21,673 bases of DNA from a virus, in the IMG/VR virus record IMGVR_UViG_3300042446_002214, positions 1 to 21,673 of that record; one strand, given 5' to 3'. How positions within the stretch are numbered: the first letter of the stretch is position 1; each line of letters opens with the position of its first letter. Positions 1 through 15,785 of this stretch are shown piece after piece. A program made the position numbers and the translations under genes. The notes beneath the pieces are model-generated. The model did no database searches and was not told the DNA's origin. It saw only the letters and a list, made by a program, of their open reading frames with translations.

Positions 1-355
1 CTACAAGAAGGGAGGTTTCCTTCTCATTTAGAATTTCCCCGATTTTATCAACAAGGGGTCTCATGTATGGATCGAACTTCTCATCAAGAGAACCTTTAAG
101 GAACCCTAAGCTTTTTTGGGAGGATTCAACTACCGTTCTTAAGTAGTTTATCTTGATGTTTTTAGAATCTTCGTTAAAAAGATGAAGGGCGGCATATACT
201 GCTAAAAAGGTTTTTGATGTTCCCGCTGGTCCACTAAGGAAAACTATTTTTGTTTCCCTTTGGGTCATTATTTTAAAGAATTGTTGTTGTTTGGGGGTCA
301 GTTCGATGTTGCCCAAGAGCAACCCTGTCTTAAAGTTCTTTTTACTTGACATCAT
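1..355 (-). CDS. phoH: PhoH-like P-loop ATPase, N-terminal part (cut by left edge)
   Basis: Reading leftward from ATG 355-353, 118 codons are open to the window edge. The N-terminus reaches a Walker A motif GPAGTSKT at residues 42-49, preceded by the Q-motif-like stretch LTPKQQQFF (19-27). This arrangement and the following NYLRTVVESSQKSLGFLKG segment are typical of PhoH-family ATPases, common in phages and probably acting on RNA; their exact role is unsettled. A second ATG at 352-350 lies 6 nt after a TAAATT box (364-359), so the true start may be the second Met. The stop lies outside the window. The gene diverges from the plus-strand array that starts at 446. Family assignment is firm, function is not. 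Confidence 0.88.
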   Translation of the reverse strand, partial: MMSSKKNFKTGLLLGNIELTPKQQQFFKIMTQRETKIVFLSGPAGTSKTFLAVYAALHLFNEDSKNIKINYLRTVVESSQKSLGFLKGSLDEKFDPYMRPLVDKIGEILNEKETSLLV

Positions 356-6075: not shown

Positions 6076-6315
6076 ATGAGCCAACACTCCAACATCTGTA
6101 AGGAAGTCCTCTCCAAAGCGGTTAAATTTAATCTGTCGCATGGACAAACGTCAGAATTGCTGAACGCTATTTTTGCCGCTGCTGAATATGAGTGGGAAGT
6201 GTCCGAAACAGAAATACCCAATCTTTCTTATTCTTATCTTCGCACTCAAAAGGACGGATTGTATGGAGTGTCTCACGATCAAATTGATTCTTGGATGGAA
6301 ACTTCAGCTAAGTAA
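6076..6315 (+). CDS. Hypothetical protein (79 aa)
   Basis: Two N-terminal helices (CKEVLSKAVKFNLSHGQTSELLNAIFAAAEYEWE), then a polar segment with LSYSYLRTQKDGLYGVSHDQID. No family recognised. The start is preceded by AACTCTAATATAA (6059-6071). A TAATAT box there ends 6 nt before the ATG but has no good -35, so the gene may instead be read from 5841. The same 13-bp string recurs before tRNA-Met. Confidence 0.72.
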   Translation: MSQHSNICKEVLSKAVKFNLSHGQTSELLNAIFAAAEYEWEVSETEIPNLSYSYLRTQKDGLYGVSHDQIDSWMETSAK

Positions 6316-6342
6316 CTCTAATATAAAAGGAACGATAAAAAG

Positions 6343-6414
6343 GGGGGTGTAGCTAATTGGTCTAGCGCTCGACTCATAATCGAAGGAAAGCAGGTTCGAT
6401 TCCTGTCGCCCCCA
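6343..6414 (+). tRNA. tRNA-Met or tRNA-Ile2 (CAT)
   Basis: Acceptor GGGGGTG/CGCCCCC, D-arm GCTA/TAGC, anticodon loop CTCATAA (anticodon CAT), T-arm GCAGG/CCTGT around TTCGATT, discriminator A, no encoded CCA. It is not an initiator tRNA (no C1-A72 mismatch or GGG/CCC anticodon stem). Elongator Met is favoured because a tRNA-Ile(TAT) elsewhere already reads AUA, but lysidine-modified Ile2 cannot be excluded. Confidence 0.92.
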
Positions 6415-6425
6415 TCTCTCACCTA

Positions 6426-6504
6426 CATAACTCGTTGAAAATAAACCACTTACAGGGCGCGGCCCCGCCGCCCTTCATAACTCGTTGATAATAAAAGACT
6501 TACG
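6426..6504. repeat. Double stem-loop element E5
   Basis: Weaker hairpin arms than other copies (CATAACTCGTTGA with AAACCACTTAC; CATAACTCGTTGA with AAAAGACTTACG) around the standard GC linker. It follows the tRNA. Confidence 0.75.
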
Positions 6505-6519
6505 ACACAAAGAATATCA

Positions 6520-6531
6520 CGCAATCGCGCC
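6520..6531. promoter_or_regulatory. CGCAATCGCGCC motif
   Basis: Between E5 and the promoter of 6586, 20 bp upstream of the -35 box. Confidence 0.42.
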
Positions 6532-6551
6532 AAAAAACATCATTAAACTAC

Positions 6552-6579
6552 TTGCATCTTTCCTTTCTTATGTTATCTT
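6552..6579 (+). promoter_or_regulatory. Leaderless promoter for 6586
   Basis: -35 TTGCAT (6552-6557), 16-bp spacer, -10 TATCTT (6574-6579), then 6 nt to the ATG. Confidence 0.72.
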
Positions 6580-6585
6580 TGATAC

Positions 6586-6759
6586 ATGACTGAAGAACAA
6601 GCATACGAACACGGTTTTTACGCAACTCTCACCTTGAACCAAATGCCAGATGACGATGATCTTCTTGCGGCGTTTGATCAGGGCGAGCGGGACAGGCAGG
6701 AGGTCGCTGCCGTTGAGATGGCTCACGAAGCTTACGCGATGGAACTTTACGGCCATTGA
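6586..6759 (+). CDS. Small acidic protein (57 aa)
   Basis: Pattern A-x-x-x-G-x-x-A near the N-terminus (AYEHGFYATL), then PDDDDLLAAFDQGERDRQE. This loosely recalls phage proteins of the ribosome-modulation-factor-like type (alanine/glycine helix, then AF-x-x-G), but the match is by eye and weak. Ends ELYGH. Own promoter upstream, E6 12 bp downstream: a clean monocistronic cassette. Confidence 0.7.
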   Translation: MTEEQAYEHGFYATLTLNQMPDDDDLLAAFDQGERDRQEVAAVEMAHEAYAMELYGH

Positions 6760-6770
6760 TAGCTTTCCCT

Positions 6771-6847
6771 GTAACTCCTTGATATTCAAGGGGTTACGGG
6801 GCGCGGCCCCGCCGCTGGTCGCAACTCGTTGAGAATCAACGAATTAG
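6771..6847. repeat. Double stem-loop element E6 (compensatory changes)
   Basis: First hairpin GTAACTCCTTGA with TCAAGGGGTTAC: both arms differ from the family consensus, yet pairing is kept. Standard linker, then GCAACTCGTTGA with TCAACGAATTA. Confidence 0.83.
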
Positions 6848-6853
6848 ACTATA

Positions 6854-6865
6854 CGCAATCGCGCC
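6854..6865. promoter_or_regulatory. CGCAATCGCGCC motif
   Basis: In the longer block ATACGCAATCGCGCCATA, 7 bp after E6, 23 bp before the -35 of the next gene. Confidence 0.45.
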
Positions 6866-6888
6866 ATAAAGAAAGATGATGAATTAAT

Positions 6889-6916
6889 TTGCACTTTCCT
6901 TTTCTTGGGTTACATT
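6889..6916 (+). promoter_or_regulatory. Leaderless promoter for 6922
   Basis: -35 TTGCAC (6889-6894), 16-bp spacer, -10 TACATT (6911-6916), then 5 nt to the ATG. Confidence 0.75.
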
Positions 6917-6921
6917 ATCAC

Positions 6922-7140
6922 ATGTTCAAATACGAAGTCATTCAGCATCTTGTTGGTCCTTGGCACACTCCCGGTATGGGGAAGGTCGTTTATACTTGGT
7001 TTTCCAAGTCTCCCAAGGAGGCTTGCGCTCGCCGTGGAGCTTTCGCGGCTCATTTCGATGGGGATGACTCCCTCCCCTGCGTGATTGAGGAGGTTCGCCT
7101 TTGGCGCAACGGCAAGCTTCTGTTTTCGAAGTGGTCATAA
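6922..7140 (+). CDS. Hypothetical protein (72 aa)
   Basis: An N-terminal strand-rich stretch (FKYEVIQHLVGPWHTPG, VVYTWFSKSP) leads to a short helix (KEACARRGAFAAHF) and a C-terminal strand (VIEEVRLWRNGKLLF). This beta-beta-alpha-beta plan is common in tiny phage proteins of unknown role. Not recognised. The stop codon lies inside the first arm of E7, so the element's hairpin begins within the coding sequence. Confidence 0.73.
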   Translation: MFKYEVIQHLVGPWHTPGMGKVVYTWFSKSPKEACARRGAFAAHFDGDDSLPCVIEEVRLWRNGKLLFSKWS

Positions 7141-7214
7141 GTGGTTGAGGCTCAAAGCCTTACGGCGAGCCGCCCCGCCGCCCGTCGCAACTCGTTGAGA
7201 AGCAACGACTTACG
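7136..7214. repeat. Double stem-loop element E7, overlapping a stop codon
   Basis: First arm (from 7136) contains the TAA of the gene ending at 7140 and has diverged (ATAAGTGGTTGA with TCAAAGCCTTACG). The second hairpin GCAACTCGTTGA with AGCAACGACTTACG keeps the standard form. Confidence 0.78.
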
Positions 7215-7262
7215 ACATAAACAAAATTCCGCCGCTTTATAAGAAAAAAGAGAGAAAAGGAT

Positions 7263-7290
7263 TTGCATTCTTTCTTTAGAGTGGTATAGT
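7263..7290 (+). promoter_or_regulatory. Leaderless promoter for 7296
   Basis: -35 TTGCAT (7263-7268), 16-bp spacer, -10 TATAGT (7285-7290), then TGGAC and ATG; strongly purine-rich upstream. Confidence 0.78.
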
Positions 7291-7295
7291 TGGAC

Positions 7296-7487
7296 ATGCA
7301 ATACATCATCAAAGCTGAGAGCGGTATCCGTGGAATTTGTAATCTTGGAGCGGGGGTTTCGGAAAAAGCCGCTTGGGAAGACGCTTTTGGCCCCAAGCCT
7401 TGGACCGACTACCAGAAAAAAACTGCTAAAAAATGCTGGTGCGAGCAGGAGGAGTCTGATGAACCCGTGAGCTATTCTGGCTACTAA
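7296..7487 (+). CDS. Small hypothetical protein (63 aa)
   Basis: N-terminal strands (MQYIIKAESGIRGICNLG), then a helix with WEDAFGPKPWTDYQKKTAKKCWCEQ, and a polar tail. The DAFGPKPW element looks like a conserved core, but I cannot name the family. A CWC pair may bind metal or form a disulfide. ATG 7296 is chosen over a TTG at 7290 because that TTG overlaps the -10 box. Confidence 0.73.
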   Translation: MQYIIKAESGIRGICNLGAGVSEKAAWEDAFGPKPWTDYQKKTAKKCWCEQEESDEPVSYSGY

Positions 7488-7496
7488 TCGCAATCT

Positions 7497-7574
7497 CGTA
7501 AGTCGTTGAAAATAAACGACTTACGGGGCGCGGCCCCGCCGCCCGTCATAACTCCTTCATTATCAATGACTTAC
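7497..7574. repeat. Double stem-loop element E8
   Basis: CGTAAGTCGTTGA with AAACGACTTACG, standard linker, then CATAACTCCTTCA with TCAATGACTTAC. Confidence 0.85.
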
Positions 7575-7603
7575 AAAGATGTGCCTCCAAAGGCTTTTTG
7601 CCC

Positions 7604-7615
7604 CGCAATCGCGCC
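7604..7615. promoter_or_regulatory. CGCAATCGCGCC motif
   Basis: First of two copies between E8 and the promoter of 7777. Confidence 0.42.
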
Positions 7616-7646
7616 ATAAGCTATTTACAGAAACACGAATGATCTT

Positions 7647-7660
7647 GGCGCAATCGCGCC
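7647..7660. promoter_or_regulatory. GGCGCAATCGCGCC motif, full form
   Basis: The most complete copy: GGCGC and GCGCC arms around AATC can form a 5-bp hairpin. A second hairpin, TCAATAAG (7697-7704) with CTTATTGA (7715-7722), follows before the promoter. Confidence 0.45.
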
Positions 7661-7741
7661 ATAAAGATATTTGAAGAAAACGCTTGTATTCTTTGCTCAA
7701 TAAGGCTTGGTTGTCTTATTGAATTATTTAAAGAAAGAATC

Positions 7742-7769
7742 TTGACAAACACCGAAAACCTGCTAAATT
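7742..7769 (+). promoter_or_regulatory. Leaderless promoter for 7777
   Basis: -35 TTGACA (7742-7747), 16-bp spacer, -10 TAAATT (7764-7769), then 7 nt to the ATG. Confidence 0.75.
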
Positions 7770-7776
7770 TACCGCC

Positions 7777-8220
7777 ATGAACCTACTGAAAGAAACCATC
7801 TCCGTTTTTAATAGTTACAACCTTGTTCCCCACAACATCCTTTTTATCGGTTGTGAGGAAACTGGTCACCGCTGTTCTTGGGAACAGTTTCAAACCCTTG
7901 CGGATCGCGAATACAATGGCGGTTACGGTTGTGCGGAGGTTTTGACCGACCTTGTGATTATCTTTGTTGACGGAACGAAGCTCTCCCGTAGTGAATACGA
8001 TGGTTCTGAGTGGTGGAGCGTCAAAAAGCCCTTCGTGATGCCAGAAGAAACCAAGGAAATCGATTCTCTTTTTGTTGAGAATTATAATTATCGTTTTCAA
8101 GACCTTAAAGAAGATTATTGGAATGATGTTGCCAGCGATGGAGAAGCCGATGGAGACGCCCTTGCGAGTGCTGGTTTTGGCACGGATGAGGACTATGGGT
8201 TCTTTGGTGATGAGTATTGA
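7777..8220 (+). CDS. Hypothetical acidic protein (147 aa)
   Basis: One of the larger array proteins. The N-terminal 90 residues look folded: helix KETISVFNSYN, strand HNILFIGCEE, a helix around WEQFQTLADREY, strands LVIIFVDGTKL and SEWWSVKKP. The last 45 residues are very acidic (repeated D/E with G and A), which may mimic nucleic acid or be disordered. Five Cys are not arranged as an obvious zinc site. No family recognised. Confidence 0.78.
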   Translation: MNLLKETISVFNSYNLVPHNILFIGCEETGHRCSWEQFQTLADREYNGGYGCAEVLTDLVIIFVDGTKLSRSEYDGSEWWSVKKPFVMPEETKEIDSLFVENYNYRFQDLKEDYWNDVASDGEADGDALASAGFGTDEDYGFFGDEY

Positions 8221-8229
8221 TTTTTAATC

Positions 8230-8309
8230 GTTGTAAGGTGTTGAGCATCAGCGTCTTACGACGGCGCACCGCCCGTCCCGTCGTAACTCGTTCATTCTTA
8301 ACGACTTAG
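8230..8309. repeat. Double stem-loop element E9 (wobble-rich)
   Basis: GTAAGGTGTTGA pairs with TCAGCGTCTTAC using several G-T wobbles, extended by GTT/GAC at the base; divergent linker; then CGTAACTCGTTCA with TTAACGACTTA. The wobbles suggest that pairing matters in RNA. Confidence 0.8.
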
Positions 8310-8315
8310 CCTATA

Positions 8316-8327
8316 CGCAATCGCGCC
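8316..8327. promoter_or_regulatory. CGCAATCGCGCC motif
   Basis: In the block TATACGCAATCGCGCCATA, 7 bp after E9 and 23 bp before the -35 box: the same spacing as at 6854. Confidence 0.45.
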
Positions 8328-8350
8328 ATATAAAATAAAGAAGAAAAGAG

Positions 8351-8378
8351 TTGAACCTTTCCTTTCTTCTGTTACATT
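8351..8378 (+). promoter_or_regulatory. Leaderless promoter for the 8385-9091 operon
   Basis: -35 TTGAAC (8351-8356), 16-bp spacer, -10 TACATT (8373-8378), then 6 nt to the ATG. Confidence 0.75.
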
Positions 8379-8384
8379 ACCTAC

Positions 8385-8570
8385 ATGAACAACGACCTAT
8401 TCGAAGAAATCGAAAACACCGCTGAATGCCTTTTCGAAAAAGAAGAAGCAGATCGAGACTACGATACTGTTGCGAAAGAAATCGCTTCGCGCTATCCCGG
8501 CGCATCTTGGAGCAGTATTCGTCTTCAACTTGAATACATCGTTTCCGATATTGAAAACCTCGCCGCCTAA
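8385..8570 (+). CDS. Small acidic helical protein (61 aa)
   Basis: First gene of a four-gene operon (gaps 4, 1 and 3 nt). Helix LFEEIENTAECLFEKEEA, then a possible helix-turn-helix-like segment (YDTVAKEIASRYPGASWSSIRLQLEYIV) of the kind seen in small DNA-binding domains. The overall charge is acidic, so this is only a suggestion. No family recognised. Confidence 0.72.
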   Translation: MNNDLFEEIENTAECLFEKEEADRDYDTVAKEIASRYPGASWSSIRLQLEYIVSDIENLAA

Positions 8571-8574
8571 TACC

Positions 8575-8802
8575 ATGCAAACCGAACAAGAAATCAAACT
8601 CTCATATCATCGCCTAAAACACGGTAGCCTCTATGATCGTGGCTCCGCTGATGCATACTACTGGCGTGATGCCGATCCGCACTATTACCCCAACGGAACC
8701 TACAATCCTCCCCGCATTGGAAAAGAGGAATTGTCCAAAGAACAAATTGAGGAATACATGTTCGCCTATAACAACGAAACCGACAGAAAGGAATACCAAT
8801 AA
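8575..8802 (+). CDS. Conserved phage protein of unknown function (75 aa)
   Basis: Shows a pattern I recognise from many tailed-phage genomes: DRGSADAYYWRDADPHYYPNG (about residues 19-39), then a hydrophobic-acidic helix with IEEYMFAYNNETDRKEY. It is rich in Tyr, Asp and His and likely a compact single domain. No biochemical role is known to me. No SD; the start follows the previous stop by 4 nt, so reinitiation or coupling is likely. Confidence 0.78.
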   Translation: MQTEQEIKLSYHRLKHGSLYDRGSADAYYWRDADPHYYPNGTYNPPRIGKEELSKEQIEEYMFAYNNETDRKEYQ

Positions 8803-8803
8803 C

Positions 8804-8989
8804 ATGGACGAAGACCAGTATATCGAAAGCTATTGGGAGGCCGATATGTTTGGCAATCCCTACTTGCAGCCCGATCAAGTAGAAGATGATTCTTTTTATC
8901 GAGGTATGGATAGCGAAGAAGAAGAGGCAGAAGAACAAGAAGAAAGCTATCAAGAAGAATTCGGCTTTTCAGAATACAACGACTATTAA
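8804..8989 (+). CDS. Very acidic small protein (61 aa)
   Basis: About one third Asp/Glu, including the run DSEEEEAEEQEESYQEE (about residues 36-52). Starts 1 nt after the preceding stop (TAACATG). Such a composition fits disorder or nucleic-acid mimicry; function unknown. Confidence 0.72.
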   Translation: MDEDQYIESYWEADMFGNPYLQPDQVEDDSFYRGMDSEEEEAEEQEESYQEEFGFSEYNDY

Positions 8990-8992
8990 AAT

Positions 8993-9091
8993 ATGATATA
9001 CGAAGATCCTAGCTTGCTTATAAACATTATTGCAGGAATTTGTGGGGCCGTTTTGATTGTTTGTTTGTTGATTGGTCAATACGGTCATTGA
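8993..9091 (+). CDS. Membrane microprotein (32 aa)
   Basis: Last gene of the operon, 3 nt after the preceding stop. A short polar head (MIYEDPS), then a single transmembrane helix (LLINIIAGICGAVLIVCLL) and tail IGQYGH. Similar size and final His to the 31-aa family at 1465 and 4103, but sequence similarity is too low to claim homology. Confidence 0.6.
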   Translation: MIYEDPSLLINIIAGICGAVLIVCLLIGQYGH

Positions 9092-9102
9092 ATTAAAAGC
9101 TT

Positions 9103-9179
9103 CGTAACTCGTTGATCGTTAACGACTTACGGGGCGCGGCCCCGCCGCCTGTCGTAACTCCTTGATAATCAACGACTTA
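9103..9179. repeat. Double stem-loop element E10
   Basis: CGTAACTCGTTGA with TTAACGACTTACG, standard linker, then CGTAACTCCTTGA with TCAACGACTTA. Confidence 0.85.
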
Positions 9180-9186
9180 GCCCATA

Positions 9187-9198
9187 CGCAATCGCGCC
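9187..9198. promoter_or_regulatory. CGCAATCGCGCC motif
   Basis: In the block CATACGCAATCGCGCCAT, 7 bp after E10: the third instance of this exact spacing. Confidence 0.45.
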
Positions 9199-9221
9199 AT
9201 GTAAAATAAAGAAGAAAGGGG

Positions 9222-9249
9222 TTGCATTCCCCCAAAAATGCATTACATT
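9222..9249 (+). promoter_or_regulatory. Promoter for 9291 (with leader)
   Basis: -35 TTGCAT (9222-9227), 16-bp spacer, -10 TACATT (9244-9249). The gene start is 41 nt further on, so this is one of the few units with a 5' leader. A tiny reading frame TTG-TCG-AAA-GGA-TAA begins 4 nt after the -10 box. Confidence 0.7.
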
Positions 9250-9290
9250 ACTCTTGTCGAAAGGATAAACAAATAACCGAAAGACTAAAT

Positions 9291-9548
9291 ATGAAAGACC
9301 AATTAGATGCTACTGACAAACTGTATGTTGCCGCCCGAATCATCAATGGCGAGGAAGCCATTGCCGAATTCAATTACGAAGACAAATTCGGATGCATTAC
9401 GCATCGTCGCGTAAAGGTTGATTCGGTAGTTACCGACAACCACGGGAACTTCATCTGGTATAACTATTCGGATGGAGGTGGTCACGGTGGTGGTCATCGC
9501 GCCTTCAATGCTGAACGTATCAACGGATTCCGCTTTGTTCGCAAGTAA
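9291..9548 (+). CDS. Small protein with WYL-like core (85 aa)
   Basis: The second half (RRVKVDSVVTDNHGNFIWYNYSDGG...HRAFNAERINGFRFV) has the layout of a WYL core: a strand with a basic R-R-x-K-V motif, an aromatic strand, and R-x-F-x-x-x-R-I before the last strand. WYL domains bind ligands and occur in phage and defence regulators, but there is no HTH here, so this would be a stand-alone sensor or just an SH3-like barrel. A Gly/His loop (GGGHGGGH) is distinctive. No SD in the leader. Confidence 0.7.
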   Translation: MKDQLDATDKLYVAARIINGEEAIAEFNYEDKFGCITHRRVKVDSVVTDNHGNFIWYNYSDGGGHGGGHRAFNAERINGFRFVRK

Positions 9549-9556
9549 TGGGTAAA

Positions 9557-9591
9557 GGGGCGCGGTCTCACATTATGTGACGCCGCGCCCC
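9557..9591 (+). terminator. GC-rich hairpin (possible terminator or processing site)
   Basis: GGGGCGCGG (9557-9565) pairs with CCGCGCCCC (9583-9591); inside, TCACA pairs with TGTGA around TTA. No T run follows and the next gene starts 14 nt later, so it may stabilise or process a joint transcript rather than terminate it. Confidence 0.55.
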
Positions 9592-9605
9592 AACTGTTTC
9601 ATATA

Positions 9606-9971
9606 ATGAAAAAACGAGTTTACTTTAATCTGCACAAACGCCTTTTCTCTGTTCAAGAGAAGGTGAATGGTCAATGGAAGGTTGTCGGTCACACTGATGA
9701 CATCACTCTTTACAATGTTACCTTTAAGGTAAGCGAGGCAGGGCGGCAAAGGGTTCTTAGAGAAAAGAAGAAGAATGTTCATGCTTTTGTTGAGGGAACT
9801 CTTTCCCCTTCTCCTCTTCAGTGCCACAGTCCACTAACCATTCGATACAATCCCTACAAGTGTGGATCGTTTACCTCTGGAGAATTCAACGTCAAGGAGG
9901 CGGGATCGGTTCGCCTTTCAAAGATCGATGGCAAGCCAACTATACAAGCCGATTTCTTTTATACAGCATGA
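9606..9971 (+). CDS. Conserved protein of unknown function (121 aa)
   Basis: Recognisable as a family found in phages and bacteria: starts RVYFNLHKRLFSVQEK, then VVGHTDDITLYNVTFKVSEAG, then RQRVLREKKKNVHAFVEGTL, with a His-rich centre and C-terminal strands. The conserved RVLREKKKNVHAFV block is diagnostic. No activity is established to my knowledge; the basic centre would suit nucleic-acid contact. No promoter is clear (the TATAAT at 9602 overlaps the start), so readthrough from 9291 is likely. Stop overlaps the next start (ATGA). Confidence 0.8.
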   Translation: MKKRVYFNLHKRLFSVQEKVNGQWKVVGHTDDITLYNVTFKVSEAGRQRVLREKKKNVHAFVEGTLSPSPLQCHSPLTIRYNPYKCGSFTSGEFNVKEAGSVRLSKIDGKPTIQADFFYTA

Positions 9972-10270
9972 TCGCAACTATCATTTATCCAAAGGAACTC
10001 GCTTTTCCTTTTAGCATTCCCTGTATTGGGGAATGCAATCAAGCCAATAAGATGAAATTTGCCGAAATGGTAACGGAATGTCTTATGGGCGATGGATGGG
10101 AAACGGAAACAGTAGTTTCTAATAACCTAGAAGTTAGGCCAATGAGATTTGGGGATATGATCCTATTCCCTGATGGAGAGACTTGGGCAGTAGGAAAAGA
10201 TGATTTCTTTCTTTTAGATAGAAGGAAAATGATTGACTTTCAAATCGCGCCAAGCTATTCCTATAACTAA
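9968..10270 (+). CDS. Hypothetical protein (100 aa)
   Basis: Starts at the ATG overlapping the stop of 9606-9971, implying coupled translation. N-terminal strands (IATIIYPKELAFPFSIPC), a helix (NQANKMKFAEMVTECLMG), and strands in VRPMRFGDMILFPDGETWAVGK. The GDMILFPDG and WAVGKDDFFLLDR parts look like a beta-hairpin domain. Not recognised. It may work with the preceding conserved protein. Confidence 0.75.
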   Translation: MIATIIYPKELAFPFSIPCIGECNQANKMKFAEMVTECLMGDGWETETVVSNNLEVRPMRFGDMILFPDGETWAVGKDDFFLLDRRKMIDFQIAPSYSYN

Positions 10271-10278
10271 ATCTACCT

Positions 10279-10356
10279 CGTAAGTCGTTGAGGTTCAGCG
10301 ACTTACGGGGCGCGGCCCCGCCGCCCGTCGTAACTCGTTGACACTTAAGCACTTAC
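10279..10356. repeat. Double stem-loop element E11
   Basis: CGTAAGTCGTTGA with TCAGCGACTTACG, standard linker, then CGTAACTCGTTGA with TTAAGCACTTAC. Confidence 0.85.
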
Positions 10357-10387
10357 AACAAAAGCATTCTTTTCTTTCAAAAGGCTG

Positions 10388-10415
10388 TTGACATTTACAG
10401 AAGGTGTGTTATATT
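10388..10415 (+). promoter_or_regulatory. Leaderless promoter for 10421
   Basis: -35 TTGACA (10388-10393), 16-bp spacer, -10 TATATT (10410-10415), then 5 nt to ATG 10421. Confidence 0.78.
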
Positions 10416-10420
10416 ACCCC

Positions 10421-10597
10421 ATGCAGAACATCGAAGATCATGCTGGCCGCTTTTGCGGATTCACCACCAAAACTCAAAAGAAAACCCATTGTGCAAAAGT
10501 ATATCGAATTACTTCGCACTACATCAAGATTCAAGACCGTAACGACGGCAAGAACTACAAATATAATCGGAATTCTATTTTGGATTGTCGGTTCTAA
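10421..10597 (+). CDS. Small basic protein (58 aa)
   Basis: Basic, with three Cys and several His. The end KIQDRNDGKNYKYNRNSILDCRF suggests beta-hairpins with Asn/Lys loops and possible nucleic-acid contact. Not recognised. The ATG is fixed by the promoter; an upstream in-frame TTG lies inside the -35 box. Confidence 0.7.
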   Translation: MQNIEDHAGRFCGFTTKTQKKTHCAKVYRITSHYIKIQDRNDGKNYKYNRNSILDCRF

Positions 10598-10605
10598 TTA
10601 AAGTT

Positions 10606-10656
10606 TTCCAACAAAGAGTTTATCCGTTTTGCTCAGTTGGAATAATATAAACGGAA
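10606..10656 (+). pseudogene. tRNA-shaped relic / interlocked stem region
   Basis: TCCGTTT (10623-10629) pairs with AAACGGA (10649-10655) like an acceptor stem, followed by ACC; between them is TGCTCAGTTGG, a typical tRNA D-arm start. Anticodon and T arms are missing. Overlapping this, TTCCAAC (10606-10612) pairs with GTTGGAA (10636-10642), so the two stems interlock as an H-type pseudoknot or compete as alternatives. Confidence 0.45.
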
Positions 10657-10674
10657 CCTTTTAAATCGCCGCCC

Positions 10675-10754
10675 GTCGTAACTCTTTGATAATCAACAAC
10701 TTACGACGAGGGCCGGGGCCGCGCCTCATAACTCGTTTACTTTCAACGACTTAT
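10675..10754. repeat. Double stem-loop element E12, inverted linker
   Basis: CGTAACTCTTTGA with TCAACAACTTACG, a linker resembling the reverse complement of the standard one (GGGCCGGGGCCGCGCC), then CATAACTCGTTTA with TCAACGACTTAT. It is preceded by CGCCGCCCG, the tail of a forward linker, as if two elements had fused head to head. Confidence 0.8.
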
Positions 10755-10815
10755 ATCATTTTCCTGTTTGGGGCCATTTTCTTAAATAAGAAAAACACTT
10801 TTTTGAAGAAAGAGG

Positions 10816-10843
10816 TTGCATTATTCCAGAAAGGCATTACATT
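10816..10843 (+). promoter_or_regulatory. Orphan promoter driving the structured region
   Basis: -35 TTGCAT (10816-10821), 16-bp spacer, -10 TACATT (10838-10843), identical in style to the leaderless promoters. Four nt later comes ATG immediately followed by TAA, so no protein is made from this position. Confidence 0.7.
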
Positions 10844-10849
10844 AACTAT

Positions 10850-11021
10850 GTAACGGATCGCAAGCTATCCGTGAATCACCGATAAATCTCGCGAAGCAAA
10901 TCTATTAGTAGGGGGAATATCCCGAACAAAAAACATCCGCAAGGGTTGGAAAATGCCTGTAAGCTGATTAATTATCTGAAACGGTGAGGGTTGGAAAAGA
11001 TAAACGCCAACACAAAATCTA
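10850..11021 (+). ncRNA. Candidate structured noncoding RNA
   Basis: The predicted transcript has no usable reading frame. Visible helices: ACGGAT/ATCCGT (10853-10858 with 10867-10872), GGGA/TCCC (10913-10916 with 10920-10923), ATCC-GCAA-GGGT with a GNRA loop (10935-10946), and a long-range TCACCG/CGGTGA pairing (10876-10881 with 10982-10987) that would close a multibranch domain. GGGTTGGAAAA occurs twice (10943-10953, 10988-10998). It could alternatively be a long leader for the gene at 11056, although that gene has its own promoter. No known RNA family recognised. Confidence 0.48.
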
Positions 11022-11050
11022 TTGACAAACTTCTATTCTTGCATTACATT
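11022..11050 (+). promoter_or_regulatory. Leaderless promoter for 11056
   Basis: -35 TTGACA (11022-11027), 17-bp spacer, -10 TACATT (11045-11050), then 5 nt to ATG 11056. CATTACTCCATG is then repeated so that a second ATG follows 12 nt later. Confidence 0.8.
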
Positions 11051-11055
11051 ACTCC

Positions 11056-11532
11056 ATGCATTACTCCATGACAAAAAACACTCTTCTTCTCTTGGTTGAC
11101 GAAAGCCCTACTTTTCGTAATTTGATTGCGAATGAACTTATCACTAATTTGGATTACCCCATGCCATCCTCAACTATCGTAAGCCTGTTGGAGGAAAGCC
11201 GCACGTTCCAAAATTGGGCCATTGATCAGTTCGACTGCGAAATTACCATCAGCAATAACTTTAAAAACCTCATCGACACCACGCTTAATGCAGTGAAAGA
11301 TAGTCTGCGCCGTGGGAACAAAATCGAAGCCATCAAAGGTTTGCGCGATGCCTCTAAGGACGAGCAAATTCGTAAGGCATTGCTGAAAGAGTTCTTTCAT
11401 TTCGCCAATGAATATAGACGCAAGGGAGATGACATCTCTTATAAAAACTATTACTCAGATACGGAACATTTCACCTTGAAATTCTCACGCGATTTGGTGG
11501 AACACATCGAAGATTGTATCGATCCCTTTTAA
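11056..11532 (+). CDS. Hypothetical helical protein (158 aa)
   Basis: All-helical profile: TLLLLVDESPTFRNLIANELI, PSSTIVSLLEESRTFQNWAIDQF, then FKNLIDTTLNAVKDSLRRG, KIEAIKGLRDASKDEQIRKALLKEFF. It contains an internal repeat-like pair (DESPTFRNLIANEL and EESRTFQNWAIDQF) about 35 residues apart, suggesting a duplicated helical motif. No family recognised. Two starts, 11056 and 11068, arise from a 12-bp duplication; the first matches the promoter spacing. Confidence 0.77.
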   Translation: MHYSMTKNTLLLLVDESPTFRNLIANELITNLDYPMPSSTIVSLLEESRTFQNWAIDQFDCEITISNNFKNLIDTTLNAVKDSLRRGNKIEAIKGLRDASKDEQIRKALLKEFFHFANEYRRKGDDISYKNYYSDTEHFTLKFSRDLVEHIEDCIDPF

Positions 11533-11542
11533 TTTCTAACCT

Positions 11543-11620
11543 CGTAACTCGCTTAAAATCAACGAGTTACGGGGCGGGGCGGGGCCGCGAGTCATAACTC
11601 GCTCATAATCAACGACTTAC
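11543..11620. repeat. Double stem-loop element E13, inverted linker
   Basis: CGTAACTCGCTTA with TCAACGAGTTACG, a linker in the inverted sense (GGGCGGGGCGGGGCCGCG), then CATAACTCGCTCA with TCAACGACTTACG. With E12 it brackets the ncRNA candidate and the 158-aa gene. Confidence 0.83.
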
Positions 11621-11637
11621 GACAGAAGCGATTCAAG

Positions 11638-11665
11638 ATCCATGCCAACCGCATGGATTTTTTTT
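11638..11665 (+). terminator. Intrinsic terminator
   Basis: ATCCATGC (11638-11645) pairs with GCATGGAT (11651-11658) around CAACC, and the stem runs into eight T. Its 5' part, ATTCAAGATCCATGCCAA, recurs at 13128-13145. Confidence 0.85.
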
Positions 11666-11698
11666 GCGATATGGTGTAAAATAAATTGCCTCTTTTCT

Positions 11699-11727
11699 TT
11701 GACATTTAGACGAAGATGGTTTAATGT
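11699..11727 (+). promoter_or_regulatory. Leaderless promoter for 11735
   Basis: -35 TTGACA (11699-11704), 17-bp spacer, -10 TAATGT (11722-11727), then 7 nt to the ATG. Confidence 0.68.
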
Positions 11728-11734
11728 TGAACAT

Positions 11735-11908
11735 ATGAAAGACGAACTCTTCCACAACGAATCCCTCCTTGACATCCTTGACGACATCGCCTCTTTTCGC
11801 GGAGACTACCGCTTCGGCAGCAGTCACTCCCGCTTTGATCGCGAACGCGACGAGCAGGAAGATGATCAGGAAAATACCGAATCTGATCACTTTTCTTTTG
11901 ACAAATAA
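11735..11908 (+). CDS. Small acidic protein (57 aa)
   Basis: N-terminal helix (DELFHNESLLDILDDIASF), an Arg/Ser-rich middle (RGDYRFGSSHSRFDRERDE) and an acidic tail. Mostly disordered-looking. Not recognised. Its last codons double as the -35 box of the next promoter (TTTGACAAATAA). Confidence 0.68.
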   Translation: MKDELFHNESLLDILDDIASFRGDYRFGSSHSRFDRERDEQEDDQENTESDHFSFDK

Positions 11909-11926
11909 GATAAATCGTGATACATT
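11898..11926 (+). promoter_or_regulatory. Strong promoter for 11971, with leader
   Basis: -35 TTGACA (11898-11903), 17-bp spacer, -10 TACATT (11921-11926). The ATG is 44 nt further on, leaving a leader of about 37 nt, A-rich and without an SD site. Confidence 0.78.
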
Positions 11927-11970
11927 ACCTCTCGTTAAAGAACCAAAACAAACCTAACTAAAAAAAACAT

Positions 11971-12966
11971 ATGATCGTTATCGGAAAAAACCACGTTACC
12001 GCTGAACAACTCTTGAACGTTGTCACTCCTCCAGAAACTGAGTCCTTCAAGCCTCTCCCTCACCACATTTTGGTGGAATACACTCGCGAAGCTTTGAACG
12101 ATGCTGGTTTCCAGATCGTGGAAGAGGACCACGTTGTCGCCAAGGACGGTTTGCGCTACTTCGGCGGATTCGCCCTGTCTCACACTTCCCTTTCTGGTGA
12201 TCGTCGCCAGATCGTTTGCGGTGTTCGCAATGCCAACGACAAGTCTTTTCCTGCTGCCATTTGTATCGGCAACCGCATGATGGTTTGCGAAAACCTTTGC
12301 TTCTCTTCTGAAGAAAAGCTTACTCGCCGCCACACCAAAAATATCATGCGCGACCTTCGCGGCGTGATCGTTTGCGCGATCACTCGTTTGATCAAGGCAT
12401 GGAATGACATGGAGACCCGTATCAAGGCTTACGAGAACGTCACTCTTGACGAACAGCAAGCCGCGCACCTGTTGCTTGGTTTGATCGACAATAATGGTCT
12501 TCCCGCCCGTGACTTCTACAATACGATTCTTTGCTGGCGCAATCCCGAAAATGCCGCAACGGACATTGTCGAGCGTAATACTTTCATCATCGAACAGGAA
12601 GACGGTTTCGGGTTTGATGAGGAAGGCTATCAGCAAGCCCTTGCTGCCAAGCAAGCCGAACTGATCGCGGAATTCGGCGGTGATACTTTGTGGGGTCTTT
12701 ACAATGCGGTGACTCACGTTCTCAAGGGTTCCTGCCTTGACAAACTCCCACAACGCACGATGAACATGCAAGCCCTGTTTGACGGGTTCGCGGGAGTCGT
12801 CGTCTCCGTTGGCGAGGCGATCAACACGGCGGGTCTTGACGAAAACGATCAAGAGACCGACGAGGCGCGAGGTGAGTTTATCGAAACCTTCGGTGAGGTT
12901 GTCGAAGAGGTTGTCGAGGATTCTGACTCTAACATTGACACCATCGCGATGCTGATCGAACGCTAA
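11971..12966 (+). CDS. DUF932-like phage protein (331 aa)
   Basis: The region of about residues 60-130 (GFALSHTSLSGDRRQIVCGVRN, then NDKSFPAAICIGNRMMVCENL and RRHTKNIMRDL) matches the pattern of the DUF932 phage/plasmid family: a 'G-R-N-x-x-D-K-S-F-x-A' block, then 'V-C-E/D-N-L', then 'R-x-H-T'. These proteins are common in phages and plasmids, often abundant, but lack a proven activity. The C-terminal 60 residues are very acidic. Codon use is visibly more GC-rich than in neighbouring genes, and the strong promoter plus perfect terminator suggest high expression. Monocistronic. Confidence 0.8.
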   Translation: MIVIGKNHVTAEQLLNVVTPPETESFKPLPHHILVEYTREALNDAGFQIVEEDHVVAKDGLRYFGGFALSHTSLSGDRRQIVCGVRNANDKSFPAAICIGNRMMVCENLCFSSEEKLTRRHTKNIMRDLRGVIVCAITRLIKAWNDMETRIKAYENVTLDEQQAAHLLLGLIDNNGLPARDFYNTILCWRNPENAATDIVERNTFIIEQEDGFGFDEEGYQQALAAKQAELIAEFGGDTLWGLYNAVTHVLKGSCLDKLPQRTMNMQALFDGFAGVVVSVGEAINTAGLDENDQETDEARGEFIETFGEVVEEVVEDSDSNIDTIAMLIER

Positions 12967-12993
12967 CAGAACCACAACTTGGGAAGCTCGGGA

Positions 12994-13022
12994 GGGGAGG
13001 CGAAAGCCTCCCCTTTTCTTTT
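12994..13022 (+). terminator. Intrinsic terminator with GAAA tetraloop
   Basis: GGGGAGGC (12994-13001) pairs with GCCTCCCC (13006-13013) around GAAA, then TTTTCTTTT. Same core as the terminators at 2926 and 2060. Confidence 0.88.
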
Positions 13023-13039
13023 GCTGCAACAACTTAAGT

Positions 13040-13118
13040 CATAACTCGTTGAACGTCAACGAGTTACGAGGGCGCGGCCCCCCGCCCGTCGTAAGTCCCT
13101 GAGAATCAACGACTTACG
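13040..13118. repeat. Double stem-loop element E14
   Basis: CATAACTCGTTGA with TCAACGAGTTACG (GAGTTAC/GTAACTC pairing kept), GC linker, then CGTAAGTCCCTGA with TCAACGACTTACG. It sits just after an intrinsic terminator, so it is not needed for termination here. Confidence 0.85.
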
Positions 13119-13150
13119 AAGAAGCCTATTCAAGATCCATGCCAAGCTTG

Positions 13151-13172
13151 CAGAAATTCTTTTCTGTTTTTT
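13151..13172 (+). terminator. Weak terminator-like hairpin
   Basis: CAGAAA (13151-13156) with TTTCTG (13161-13166) around TTCT, then six T. AT-rich and directly upstream of the next promoter. Confidence 0.5.
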
Positions 13173-13176
13173 GTGT

Positions 13177-13204
13177 TTGACTTCTCCCCTGTTTGCCTTA
13201 CCTT
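13177..13204 (+). promoter_or_regulatory. Leaderless promoter for 13210
   Basis: -35 TTGACT (13177-13182), 16-bp spacer, -10 TACCTT (13199-13204), then 5 nt to the ATG. Confidence 0.68.
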
Positions 13205-13209
13205 TACAA

Positions 13210-13398
13210 ATGAAAGAAATCACTGTCGAGATAATCAATCAATACGGAGTTGAACGGATTCGCGTTGTCGATCAAAAACTGCGTGAAACAATCACTTCTT
13301 TAACTGGAAGAAAAACCATTTTGCAAAGCGACATCAAAGCTCTAAAGGAACTTGGCTTTAGCGTTCGCATGAAATCCGTTGAATCGGTCGAGCTTTGA
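13210..13398 (+). CDS. Small hypothetical protein (62 aa)
   Basis: An N-terminal beta-hairpin (EITVEIINQYGVERIRVV), a helix (LRETITSLTGRK), then DIKALKELGFSVRMKSV. Overall alpha/beta, basic, single domain. Not recognised. Own leaderless promoter; it ends 2 nt before the -35 box of the GP88 gene promoter. Confidence 0.72.
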   Translation: MKEITVEIINQYGVERIRVVDQKLRETITSLTGRKTILQSDIKALKELGFSVRMKSVESVEL

Positions 13399-13400
13399 CC

Positions 13401-13428
13401 TTGACAAAACCCAATCCTGTGTTATACT
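13401..13428 (+). promoter_or_regulatory. Leaderless promoter for 13436
   Basis: -35 TTGACA (13401-13406), 16-bp spacer, -10 TATACT (13423-13428), then 7 nt to the ATG. Confidence 0.8.
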
Positions 13429-13435
13429 TCTCACG

Positions 13436-14125
13436 ATGAAACTACTGAACAGCGGAAACGCAAAAACAAAGAAAGGGGAAGCTGTGGGTTGGAAAACCTT
13501 CGGAATCCATCTCGCCCCATCGCGCCTGTCTGGCTTTAACACTTGCCAACATGCGACGGTTGGTTGTGCTGCCTCTTGCCTTAATACGGCTGGAAGAGGC
13601 GCAATGTCGAGCGTCCAAAAGGCAAGGATTAATAAAACCCTTTTCTTCTTTAAAAACAAAGAAGGATTCCTCGCTGAACTTCGAAAAGAAATTCGGGCCG
13701 CTATCAAATCTAGCGAGCGGCAAGGGTTGAATCCATGTTTTAGGCTTAACCTCACTTCGGACATTCCCTTTCACAAGTTTGGAATCATGGAAGAATTTCC
13801 AGAGGTGCAATTTTATGATTACACCAAGGATTATAAAAGGGCGCTACAATACATGCATGGCGAACTGCCGAAAAACTACCATCTGACTTTCTCCCGCGCC
13901 GAATCGGAAGAGAATCAACAGCAAGCCAAATCCCTTCTTTCTATGGGAATGAATGTTGCGGCTGTGTTTCGCGAATACATTCCAGCAACGTGGAACGGGT
14001 TTAACGTTGTTGACGGTGATGAAAATGACTTGCGGTTTCTTGATCCGCAAGGCGTGATTGTCGGATTGGTTGAGAAGGGAAAAGCTAAACAAGATTCCTC
14101 TGGCTTTGTCCTTTCTCCCGCATGA
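13436..14125 (+). CDS. GP88-family phage protein (229 aa)
   Basis: Matches the phage 'gene product 88' family by its signature: LAPSRLSGFNTCQHATVGC (about residues 26-44) with Cys37, Cys44 and Cys48, then LNTAGRG, RLNLTSDI, FPEVQFYDYTKD, NYHLTFSRAES, and the C-terminal VDGDENDLRFLDPQGVIVGL. The three conserved Cys could hold metal or an iron-sulfur centre; the barrel-like order of motifs recalls radical-SAM-type folds, but this is inference. Function is unproven. Near full length. Its stop overlaps a 20-aa gene. Confidence 0.86.
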   Translation: MKLLNSGNAKTKKGEAVGWKTFGIHLAPSRLSGFNTCQHATVGCAASCLNTAGRGAMSSVQKARINKTLFFFKNKEGFLAELRKEIRAAIKSSERQGLNPCFRLNLTSDIPFHKFGIMEEFPEVQFYDYTKDYKRALQYMHGELPKNYHLTFSRAESEENQQQAKSLLSMGMNVAAVFREYIPATWNGFNVVDGDENDLRFLDPQGVIVGLVEKGKAKQDSSGFVLSPA

Positions 14126-14184
14126 ATGAACTCATAATTTTACTTGCTTTTTGCGTCTTAGGGTATATGGTGTCAAAAAACTAA
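14122..14184 (+). CDS. Membrane microprotein (20 aa)
   Basis: ATG overlaps the TGA of the GP88-family gene (ATGA). The product, MNELIILLAFCVLGYMVSKN, is a single hydrophobic helix with a short basic tail. Its very small size makes it uncertain, but the overlap, typical of coupled genes here, and the clean transmembrane profile support it. Confidence 0.45.
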   Translation: MNELIILLAFCVLGYMVSKN

Positions 14185-14189
14185 GCAAC

Positions 14190-14265
14190 GGGGCGGTAGT
14201 CCAATGGCAGAGACAGGAGACTTAAAATCTCTACAGTATGGGTTCGAATCCCATTCGCCCTACCA
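14190..14265 (+). tRNA. tRNA with Leu anticodon (TAA) on a class I body
   Basis: Acceptor GGGGCGG/TCGCCCT, D-arm with AATGGCA loop, anticodon stem GGAGA/TCTCT around CTTAAAA (anticodon TAA, reads UUA), variable region ACAGT of only 5 nt, T-arm ATGGG/CCCAT around TTCGAAT, discriminator A, encoded CCA. Bacterial tRNA-Leu normally has a long variable arm, so identity is uncertain although the anticodon and A73 fit Leu. Confidence 0.88.
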
Positions 14266-14274
14266 ATTTTTAAA

Positions 14275-14351
14275 GCACCCTTAGCTCAATCGGATAGAGC
14301 AACGGATTTCTAATCCGTAGGTTACAGGTTCGAATCCTGTAGGGTGTGCCA
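14275..14351 (+). tRNA. tRNA-Arg (TCT)
   Basis: Acceptor GCACCCT/AGGGTGT, D-arm AGCTCAATCGGATAGAGC, anticodon stem ACGGA/TCCGT around TTTCTAA (anticodon TCT, reads AGA), T-arm ACAGG/CCTGT around TTCGAAT, discriminator G, encoded CCA. Confidence 0.95.
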
Positions 14352-14372
14352 CTCTTAACAGAAAAAAAACAA

Positions 14373-14531
14373 ATGAACTATTCTAATAAATTCTGTTTTA
14401 TTCAAAAGAAAGAAGAAGCATGGATTGTTTCCATGTATCAACGCGAAGGCAACGAGGCCAAACTAATTAAAGAGATTGCCACCTCTTCGGAAGGGGAAGC
14501 CCGTAAAGCTCAAAAAGAATTCTTTCAATAA
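14373..14531 (+). CDS. Small basic protein (52 aa) between tRNA genes
   Basis: Sits between tRNA-Arg and tRNA-Ile with 21 and 15 nt gaps. Strand FCFIQKKEEAWIVSMYQR, then helix EAKLIKEIATSSEGEARKAQKEFF. Not recognised. The preceding sequence is A-rich with no SD. It is probably carried on the tRNA transcript and freed by tRNA processing. Confidence 0.68.
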   Translation: MNYSNKFCFIQKKEEAWIVSMYQREGNEAKLIKEIATSSEGEARKAQKEFFQ

Positions 14532-14546
14532 AAAACGCCTTTTAAA

Positions 14547-14621
14547 TGGCGCGTAGCTCACACTGGTGAGAGCATCCGCCTTATAAGCGGGAGGTTGCGG
14601 GTTCAATTCCCGCCGCGCCAA
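14547..14621 (+). tRNA. tRNA-Ile (TAT)
   Basis: Acceptor TGGCGCG/CGCGCCA, D-arm GCTC/GAGC, anticodon stem TCCGC/GCGGG around CTTATAA (anticodon TAT, reads AUA), T-arm GCGGG/CCCGC around TTCAATT, discriminator A. CCA not fully encoded (ACCT). Confidence 0.93.
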
Positions 14622-14638
14622 CCTTTTCAGAAAAGATT

Positions 14639-14717
14639 CATAACTCCTTGAGTATCAACGAGTTACGAGGGGGCGGCCCCGCCCCCGTCGTAAGTCCTTC
14701 AAAATAAACGACTTACG
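14639..14717. repeat. Double stem-loop element E15, at a convergent junction
   Basis: CATAACTCCTTGA with TCAACGAGTTACG, GC linker, then CGTAAGTCCTTCA with AAACGACTTACG. It lies between the end of the plus-strand tRNA cluster and the end of the minus-strand operon, where a bidirectional terminator would be needed. Confidence 0.85.
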
Positions 14718-14727
14718 AAGCGGGAGT

Positions 14728-14913
14728 TTAATAGTCTATGTCTGCGTCAACTTCGGGATGCATTTGGCCCGAATAATGAATAGGACATTCCTGCCAATAA
14801 TCGAAAGGATTACAAATCCAGCCATTACTACAAGGGCATTCCTTTCCATCTTCAAGAGCCGCGTGAGCAACCTGACTTGGATAGGCTAAAATTAGATCTT
14901 GAAAATCATTCAT
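14728..14913 (-). CDS. Cys-rich small protein (61 aa)
   Basis: Contains ECPCSNGWICNPFDYWQECPIH (about residues 25-46): four Cys and a His in a pattern seen in many small phage proteins and likely binding zinc. Acidic tail (EVDADIDY). Last gene of the minus operon; its ATG overlaps the TGA of the preceding gene. Function unknown. Confidence 0.78.
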   Translation of the reverse strand: MNDFQDLILAYPSQVAHAALEDGKECPCSNGWICNPFDYWQECPIHYSGQMHPEVDADIDY

Positions 14914-15152
14914 GCTTTAATATAACTGAATTCGCTAAAAAGAGCAACAAAAAGTTCATCTCTTTCATTAAGATAGTCGTTAACTTCAACATCTTTGCCA
15001 CGATACTTTTCGTGAAGATAATCGCGAGCAATTTCTGTCAGATAGCCATTAACGTTTCCTTCTGGAATTCTGCCAGCATCGACAAGTTCCTTTAGCGTCA
15101 AGCCCGTCCAATTAAATGGGGCATCAAGAAGTTTTTTGGCAATTTCTTTCAT
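14910..15152 (-). CDS. Small protein with HTH-like region (80 aa)
   Basis: Start at 15152 chosen because it overlaps the upstream stop (TAATG). Residues 15-45 (WTGLTLKELVDAGRIPEGNVNGYLTEIARDYL) have the spacing of a winged-helix or DprA-like helix-turn-helix: a helix, a turn at Gly, then a recognition-like helix. The rest is a charged helix. Possibly a small regulator; not assigned to a family. Confidence 0.75.
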   Translation of the reverse strand: MKEIAKKLLDAPFNWTGLTLKELVDAGRIPEGNVNGYLTEIARDYLHEKYRGKDVEVNDYLNERDELFVALFSEFSYIKA

Positions 15153-15319
15153 TAGTTTGGTTTTACAAAATAAGCTTGATTCATAAACGTGGACAGCTCC
15201 ATGTTCCGCCCGTCCTTTTCGTAGCCGTAATAAAGCCAACCGTGAAAGGTTGTCATCCACACAAGTCTCCACCCCTTCTCTTTAAGAAGTTCGCTTTTTT
15301 GTTCAAAGGTCTTTCTCAT
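15152..15319 (-). CDS. Small basic protein (55 aa)
   Basis: Reads MRKTFEQKSELLKEKGWRLV, then strands VWMTTFHGWLYYGYEKDG and a polar end. An in-frame start at 15403 would give 83 residues, but the shorter form is preferred because the 43-aa gene upstream occupies that DNA in another frame and has the promoter. The two overlap by 17 nt. Aromatic-rich; no family recognised. Confidence 0.65.
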   Translation of the reverse strand: MRKTFEQKSELLKEKGWRLVWMTTFHGWLYYGYEKDGRNMELSTFMNQAYFVKPN

Positions 15320-15434
15320 TTTTTCGGCAGTGCGATTTGTTTTGTTGTTTCTTTTTGTCTGGAACGCACTTCGTTCCCATGTTGAGAACGAAAGCGGCTC
15401 CACGTTTAACCTTGTAGGGTGGAATGCTTTTCAT
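15303..15434 (-). CDS. Small basic protein (43 aa), operon leader gene
   Basis: Sequence PPYKVKRGAAFVLNMGTKCV followed by a Lys/Asn/Cys-rich tail (PDKKKQQNKSHCRKNEKDL). The 'R-G-x-x-F-V-L-x-x-G-T-K' type core resembles tiny phage proteins seen elsewhere. Start fixed by a promoter ending 5 nt upstream on the minus strand. First gene of the overlapping operon 15434 to 14728. Confidence 0.68.
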   Translation of the reverse strand: MKSIPPYKVKRGAAFVLNMGTKCVPDKKKQQNKSHCRKNEKDL

Positions 15435-15439
15435 GCACT

Positions 15440-15468
15440 ATAATACAATGAAAAGCCAAAAAGTTCAA
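15440..15468 (-). promoter_or_regulatory. Leaderless promoter for the 15434-14728 operon
   Basis: On the minus strand: -35 TTGAAC (15468-15463), 17-bp spacer, -10 TATTAT (15445-15440), then AGTGC and ATG 15434. Upstream AAAAGGA matches the plus-strand promoters. Confidence 0.75.
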
Positions 15469-15481
15469 TCCTTTTCTTCGA

Positions 15482-15751
15482 TTAGATCGTGATTTTAATA
15501 AACACGTTTTTGTCGAAAGAATAGGAGGCAGGATAAGTATAACCAGAGGAATCAAGAGTTCGACCTCCCATCGTCATGCTGGAAACGCTATCGACGCGCA
15601 CCACATGAACATAATTTGACCATTCCTTTTTGGCAACAACCAGAACCAAGTCTCCCTCCTTGATGTCGTAGCTGTTAAGATCCCTTTGAAGATCTTTGAG
15701 TTCTTTTTCCAAAAAGGCGATTTGACGTTCGATTTCTTCTTTAGTTTGCAT
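15482..15751 (-). CDS. Coiled-coil plus beta-barrel small protein (89 aa)
   Basis: Residues 1-28 form an amphipathic helix (TKEEIERQIAFLEKELKDLQ); from about residue 33 short strands follow (EGDLVLVVAKKE, YVHVVRVDSV, FDKNVFIKITI), consistent with an SH3-like barrel. Longer in-frame starts exist, but the promoter 6 nt before ATG 15751 fixes this one. Monocistronic; E16 lies upstream. Function unknown. Confidence 0.75.
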   Translation of the reverse strand: MQTKEEIERQIAFLEKELKDLQRDLNSYDIKEGDLVLVVAKKEWSNYVHVVRVDSVSSMTMGGRTLDSSGYTYPASYSFDKNVFIKITI

Positions 15752-15757
15752 GAGGGT

Positions 15758-15785
15758 AATATACCACCTTTCCGCAAAAGCGCAA
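15758..15785 (-). promoter_or_regulatory. Leaderless promoter for 15751
   Basis: Minus strand: -35 TTGCGC (15785-15780), 16-bp spacer, -10 TATATT (15763-15758), 6 nt, ATG 15751. The same architecture as on the plus strand. Confidence 0.78.

Follow-up and report, generated by a model that had tools for sequence, protein, structure and literature searches.

A noncoding phage segment with its own promoter that probably specifies a structured RNA

The virus record analysed here (the window, 21,673 bases in all), which over 12,474 compared bases is identical to part of a 57,761-base IMG/VR contig, carries a promoter, P1, with no gene behind it, and the question is what this promoter transcribes. 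The first-pass annotation, made from the letters alone, had proposed a small phage RNA expressed from a dedicated promoter. This proposal is supported by the absence of a reading frame, by sequence constraint and by apparent compensatory changes in a distant candidate homologue. The segment had also been placed in a block between two inverted linker elements, and both linkers were found (Table 1); from their positions, the block contains the gene of a 158-aa protein as well. Such ~80-nt linkers, with two imperfect hairpins around a GC-rich middle, stand between most small genes of the window in both orientations (~15 places within 2177-15895, e.g., 10276-10358). Similar elements occur in L007, L014, and L024, and a search of public phages with one linker copy gave no match.

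Table 1. Features of the segment and its surroundings, in window coordinates; the RNA and its helices are predictions.
Feature	Position	Strand	Details
Linker element, upstream of the RNA	10676-10754		Two imperfect hairpins and GC-rich middle; inverted relative to most copies
Promoter P1	10816-10843	+	TTGCAT 10816-10821, 16-nt spacer, TACATT 10838-10843
ATG-TAA (ATG-TAG in L003)	10848-10853	+	ATG 10848-10850, TAA 10851-10853; 4 nt past the -10 box
Putative noncoding RNA segment	10850-11021	+	Predicted 5′ end 10849-10851; 3′ end at least to the hairpin ending at 11011
5′ hairpin	10853-10872	+	ACGGAT/ATCCGT; one A-U pair is G-U in L003; missing from L024
Closing helix, 5′ strand	10876-10881	+	UCACCG, pairs with CGGUGA 10982-10987; L024, CCCCAA/UUGGGG
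Internal hairpin	10908-10927	+	GU-AG-GGG(loop)CCC-GA-AC; two substitutions and an indel in the loop in L003; 8-bp hairpin here in L024
GNRA-capped hairpin	10935-10946	+	AUCC-GCAA-GGGU; L024, CCGC-CCCGU-GCGG
First repeat copy	10942-10953	+	AGGGTTGGAAAA
Closing helix, 3′ strand	10982-10987	+	CGGUGA, directly 3′ of conserved AUCUGAAA 10974-10981
Second repeat copy	10987-10998	+	AGGGTTGGAAAA; 45 nt after the first
3′ hairpin	10990-11011	+	GUUGG-AAAAGAUAAACG-CCAAC; L024, UCGAGC-AUUGAUGAACG-GCUCGA
Promoter P2 of the 158-aa gene	11022-11050	+	TTGACA-17-TACATT; kept in L003
158-aa gene	11056-11532	+	Short ribosomal-L7/L12-like motif GNKIEAIK..RDAS
Linker element, downstream of the 158-aa gene	11543-11622		

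We defined the promoter class by the pattern TTGNNN-15..17-TANNNT followed by ATG 4-7 nt on. The window contains 31 copies, compared with a mean of 2.7 and a maximum of 7 in dinucleotide shuffles, and in 30 of them this ATG begins an ORF of 31-319 aa and lies, in every case, 5-7 nt past the -10 box, indicating that leaderless genes dominate in this phage. These thirty promoters span positions 920-21260 on both strands, and the same class occurs in L003 and L007. P1 belongs to the class, as had been annotated, and is its sole member with a spacing of 4 and its sole member without an ORF. A leaderless small protein gene at P1 would require an open frame whose ATG lies 5-7 nt past the -10 box; the spacing of 4 was found there together with a one-codon frame. 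The ATG with an immediate TAA that the annotation had noticed is present, and it is probably incidental because its spacing falls outside the range seen in all 30 coding members and because the corresponding position in L024 carries no ATG. Judged by the geometry of the other class promoters, the transcript should begin at 10849-10851, inside the ATG or past it, and the start-stop pair is therefore probably not translated. The bar minigenes of lambda are AUG-stop elements. In plants, the AUGUAA of NIP5;1 is an AUG-stop element, a start codon with an immediate stop near the 5′ end (PMC11915504). The features of such an element were not found here: in contrast to these cases, the ATG stands 4 nt past the -10 box, likely no later than the transcript start, and L024 lacks it.

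The hexamers and spacing of P1 recur at 9222-9249, in front of an 85-aa gene with a ~40-nt leader, so leadered transcripts exist too. The stretch around this promoter (9211-9250) is 85% identical over 40 nt to that around P1 (10805-10844), as if copied. At most non-leaderless gene starts inspected in the window, no Shine-Dalgarno-like motif was seen. A promoter of the same class as P1, TTGCTT-16-TATGGT at 14144-14171, lies shortly 5′ of a tRNA-Leu gene at 14190, and the class may therefore also drive stable RNA genes.

We compared the segment with that of a close relative, L003, a 16,364-base contig with the same order of elements in which promoter and segment are kept. The L003 version of P1 is TTGCAT-16-TAAATT, with the same -35 box, one change in the -10 box, and 3 of 16 spacer bases changed. 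Between 10854 and 11021, only 7 substitutions were found in 168 positions, compared with changes at 35 of ~127 synonymous sites in the flanking 58-aa and 158-aa genes (pooled pS 0.27, i.e., 27%; Fisher p 1.3e-8). A recombination patch could also lower divergence; sequence constraint is the likelier explanation of this unusual preservation because the stretches on both sides have diverged. The annotation had described about 170 nt without a usable reading frame before the next promoter, and indeed no ORF of more than 26 aa starts within 10854-11021; just one longer ORF, a 55-aa frame ending at the TAA, overlaps the segment. Furthermore, two 1-nt indels lie 31 nt apart within the segment and exclude a reading frame common to the window and L003, so that the search for a coding frame conserved in relatives came out in favor of a noncoding segment. 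A further observation concerns the stretch just 3′ of the 58-aa gene (10606-10655), where two interlocking 7-bp stems, TTCCAAC/GTTGGAA and TCCGTTT/AAACGGA, could form an H-type pseudoknot; it is identical in L003, the region is missing from L007, and 24 of 5000 shuffles contain one.

Next, the predicted fold was evaluated. The annotated helices, including the GNRA-capped stem and the 6-bp long-range closing pair, were all located (Table 1). Folding energies were no better than those of shuffles (z +0.65 for the window segment and -0.68 for the L024 candidate), and thermodynamic stability alone lends the structured-RNA reading no support. All 25 predicted pairs survive in L003, one as an A-U to G-U change, and the remaining changes fall outside pairs. 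No pair was changed on both sides between these two sequences, and a random-mutant test of structure retention in L003 was not significant (289/1000). Like the families in Rfam, the segment would be a structured noncoding RNA, with a size typical of bacterial small RNAs and leaders. The covariance search for a known family that the annotation had suggested was negative: Rfam release 15 (4227 covariance models) gave no family match in the whole window at the gathering threshold, and with E up to 5 it returned one chance match far below the gathering score for the segment and nothing credible for the L024 candidate.

A more distant candidate was detected in L024, which encodes a homologue (44% identical) of the DUF932-like 331-aa protein of the window. 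A covariance model built from the window and L003 (R1) matched L024:7544-7695 with 22.4 bits and an E-value of 0.015 in 684 kb. With a core model from the same two sequences limited to the helices predicted earlier (R3), L024:7561-7687 was the only outside match below E 1 (24.2 bits, E 0.048; next match, 17.2 bits); these E-values of 0.015-0.05 are marginal and come from a rough calibration. An R1 match in L014 with a score like that of L024 was rejected, since it spans a terminator and a linker, lacks the closing helix, and disappeared with R3. By sequence alone, the L024 match is weak, ranking ~410th of 12,782 stretches. Apart from unrelated matches, exact-pattern scans of viral contigs recovered just L003 and the virus of the window itself; scans of genome contigs recovered nothing.

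In L024, the helices follow the same order as in the window, and the single-stranded motifs are the same. As in the window, AUAA.UC and AUCUGAAA stand on either side of the closing helix; ACAAAAA is followed by a CCGC/GCGG hairpin where the window has the GNRA stem; and a hairpin of different sequence, two bases past the closing-helix region, replaces the 3′ hairpin (Table 1). The energy-minimum fold of L024 contains these helices by itself. In a structure-guided alignment with this one diverged member of marginal E-value, 10 of the 15 scored pairs were changed on both sides, and these both-side changes were lost when the partners were slid by one to three columns. A scan with a descriptor designed after L024 was seen placed L024 well ahead of every unrelated locus (26 versus 20). 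The candidate is preceded by a promoter of the same class, TTGCAT-17-TAATAT, at the distance expected for an RNA that starts only a few bases 5′ of the closing helix; in this record, the frequency of promoter-like pairs is 0.0017 per base. Like the window segment, the candidate is noncoding and stands, on the same strand, 5′ of the DUF932-like and GP88 genes; it ends at a linker of the same kind, after which a SprT-like gene follows. Because its own E-value is marginal, homology is argued from this combination of evidence, which makes L024 very likely a homologue of the segment. The proposed check by folding of homologues and covariation showed helices retained in L003 and apparent compensatory pair changes in the diverged candidate. 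On this basis, the RNA family comprises three distinct members, the window, L003, and, as a candidate, L024.

We then considered whether the segment serves the 158-aa gene downstream. This protein has no match in Pfam, NCBIfam, or PADLOC, its best relatives share just a short motif that we take to be L7/L12-like, and its structure model (pLDDT 54.7) was unusable for judging the fold. At its start (11045-11067), a 12-nt tandem duplication, CATTACTCCATG, gives two in-frame ATGs where L003 has one. In L007, whose 331-aa protein is 83% identical to that of the window, the flanking 58-aa and 57-aa genes are present with a single linker between them, and both the RNA and the 158-aa gene are absent; the whole 30-kb record contains no match to the RNA. 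The RNA and the gene may therefore be gained or lost together by exchange between linkers. This joint loss in L007, their joint retention in L003, and the lack of any detectable intrinsic terminator between P1 and the gene would suit a long untranslated leader; in this model, P1 yields a leadered mRNA and P2 a leaderless mRNA, with the fold regulating the gene in cis. However, P2 lies between segment and gene, is itself conserved, and has a leaderless start. In addition, the L024 candidate is followed by a linker and a different gene, and no 158-aa homologue was matched in its record, a fragment searched without a positive control. We consider a leader unlikely. We also considered, and rejected, base pairing between the RNA and the 3′ region of the 58-aa gene (TTTTCCAAC versus GTTGGAAAA, 9 bp twice), which had shuffle fractions of 0.025-0.09 and no high rank in the duplex search.

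The ATG at a leaderless-class promoter could alternatively be the remnant of a small leaderless gene that has decayed. In the window, its frame has stops at codons 2 and 9 and a codon score of 0.002. In L003, the frame reads M*RIASDP*ITDKSREANLLVGVIPEQKISARVGNACKLINYLKR*, is open past the second stop, and has an intermediate score of 0.085 (genes, 0.21; wrong frames, -0.06), as might be expected of a former gene, but its peptide matched no protein family. Two frameshifts between the window and L003 despite strong constraint are the opposite of decay, and the spacing of the ATG and its absence from L024 also argue against this explanation, which is quite improbable.

The duplicated sequence reported by the annotation was confirmed and found to be longer than chance would produce. 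An 11-nt duplicate, GGGTTGGAAAA, at 10943-10953 and 10988-10998 is extended to 12 nt by the preceding A, and a repeat of this length arose in 9 of 5000 shuffles of the segment. In L003, both copies read AGGGTTGGAAATG, one by deletion and the other by substitution, a concerted change; among random mutants with at least two changes in the copies, only 0.9% retained a repeat of at least 12 nt. The copies are situated upstream of P2, at distances of 24 and 69 nt, and the segment could instead be a DNA element, e.g., one in which the two AGGGTTGGAAAA copies, 45 nt apart, act as operator or initiator sites controlling P2 or replication. Yet the repeat accounts for only 24 of the ~170 bases under constraint, and its absence from L024 means that it is not a core feature. 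P1 is conserved, and an RNA would account for the compensatory pair changes in L024. A DNA element is accordingly highly unlikely.

Finally, known pairs of an RNA and a protein were compared. In type III toxin-antitoxin systems (ToxIN, CptIN, and TenpIN), which resemble this locus in that a small protein gene is preceded by a small, structured RNA, a protein toxin is described as being restrained by an antitoxin RNA that in ToxIN consists of repeats (PMC8860590, PMC4627078). Unlike those systems, the locus has a 12-nt duplicate in place of tandem near-identical repeats, a separate promoter P2, no neighboring endoribonuclease of the ToxN/CptN/TenpN kind matched in Pfam, NCBIfam, or PADLOC, and in L024 a candidate RNA without a match to the protein; the type III identity was rejected. 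Phage-encoded AbiF RNA/AbiF protein systems are described from Clostridioides difficile, with a noncoding RNA beside a protein gene (PMC12373285); the arrangement is similar here, and the 158-aa protein has no Abi_2-type Pfam or PADLOC match and the RNA no Rfam match. That the segment is the RNA half of a type III-like pair with the 158-aa protein, as the gene order, the loss as a unit in L007, and the repeat within the RNA might suggest, is extremely improbable given a 12-nt repeat unit without an array, the absence of a terminator between RNA and gene, the lack of a toxin match, and the candidate RNA of L024 without a match to the protein.

These results suggest that ~10850-11021 is probably a phage-encoded structured noncoding RNA with its own promoter P1, predicted to act in trans. 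That the segment is structured, constrained, noncoding, and equipped with its own promoter is well supported: the promoter class, the missing coding frame, the constraint, and the retained helices were shown by comparison, and the compensatory change comes from a single distant candidate homologue. These features would best be explained by a discrete trans-acting RNA. In the proposed mechanism, P1 would start the RNA ~6 nt past the -10 box, and the transcript would fold into a branched domain that is closed by the 6-bp helix, encloses two hairpins, and is followed by the 3′ hairpin; the members closest to the window would add the 5′ hairpin. Because no intrinsic terminator was found, the 3′ end would arise by read-through and then trimming. 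Action in trans is suggested by the different downstream genes, the 158-aa gene in the window and L003 and the SprT-like gene in L024. The conserved unpaired stretches ACAAAAA, AAUYAUCUGAAA, and the GAURAACG loop may serve as surfaces for a protein or RNA partner during infection.

We regard the segment as probably a new RNA family, ordinary in kind and outside Rfam. We tentatively raise the possibility of a phage RNA family in which a branched core and single-stranded motifs are conserved and which moves as a cassette, acting in trans independently of neighboring genes; its carriers would be a group of uncultivated phages in which most genes are leaderless, and its targets would be host or phage machinery. 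Uncultivated phages have yielded few described structured RNAs, and the segment, which matches none in Rfam, offers concrete motifs and pairs for testing. The locus also suggests that noncoding segments in gene-dense phages of this type can be cassettes between linker repeats rather than gaps. The main interest of the locus is that fold, promoter, and position seem to persist as sequence and neighbors change, and a promoter-driven RNA that keeps its fold in this way would point to an RNA-based step in infection.
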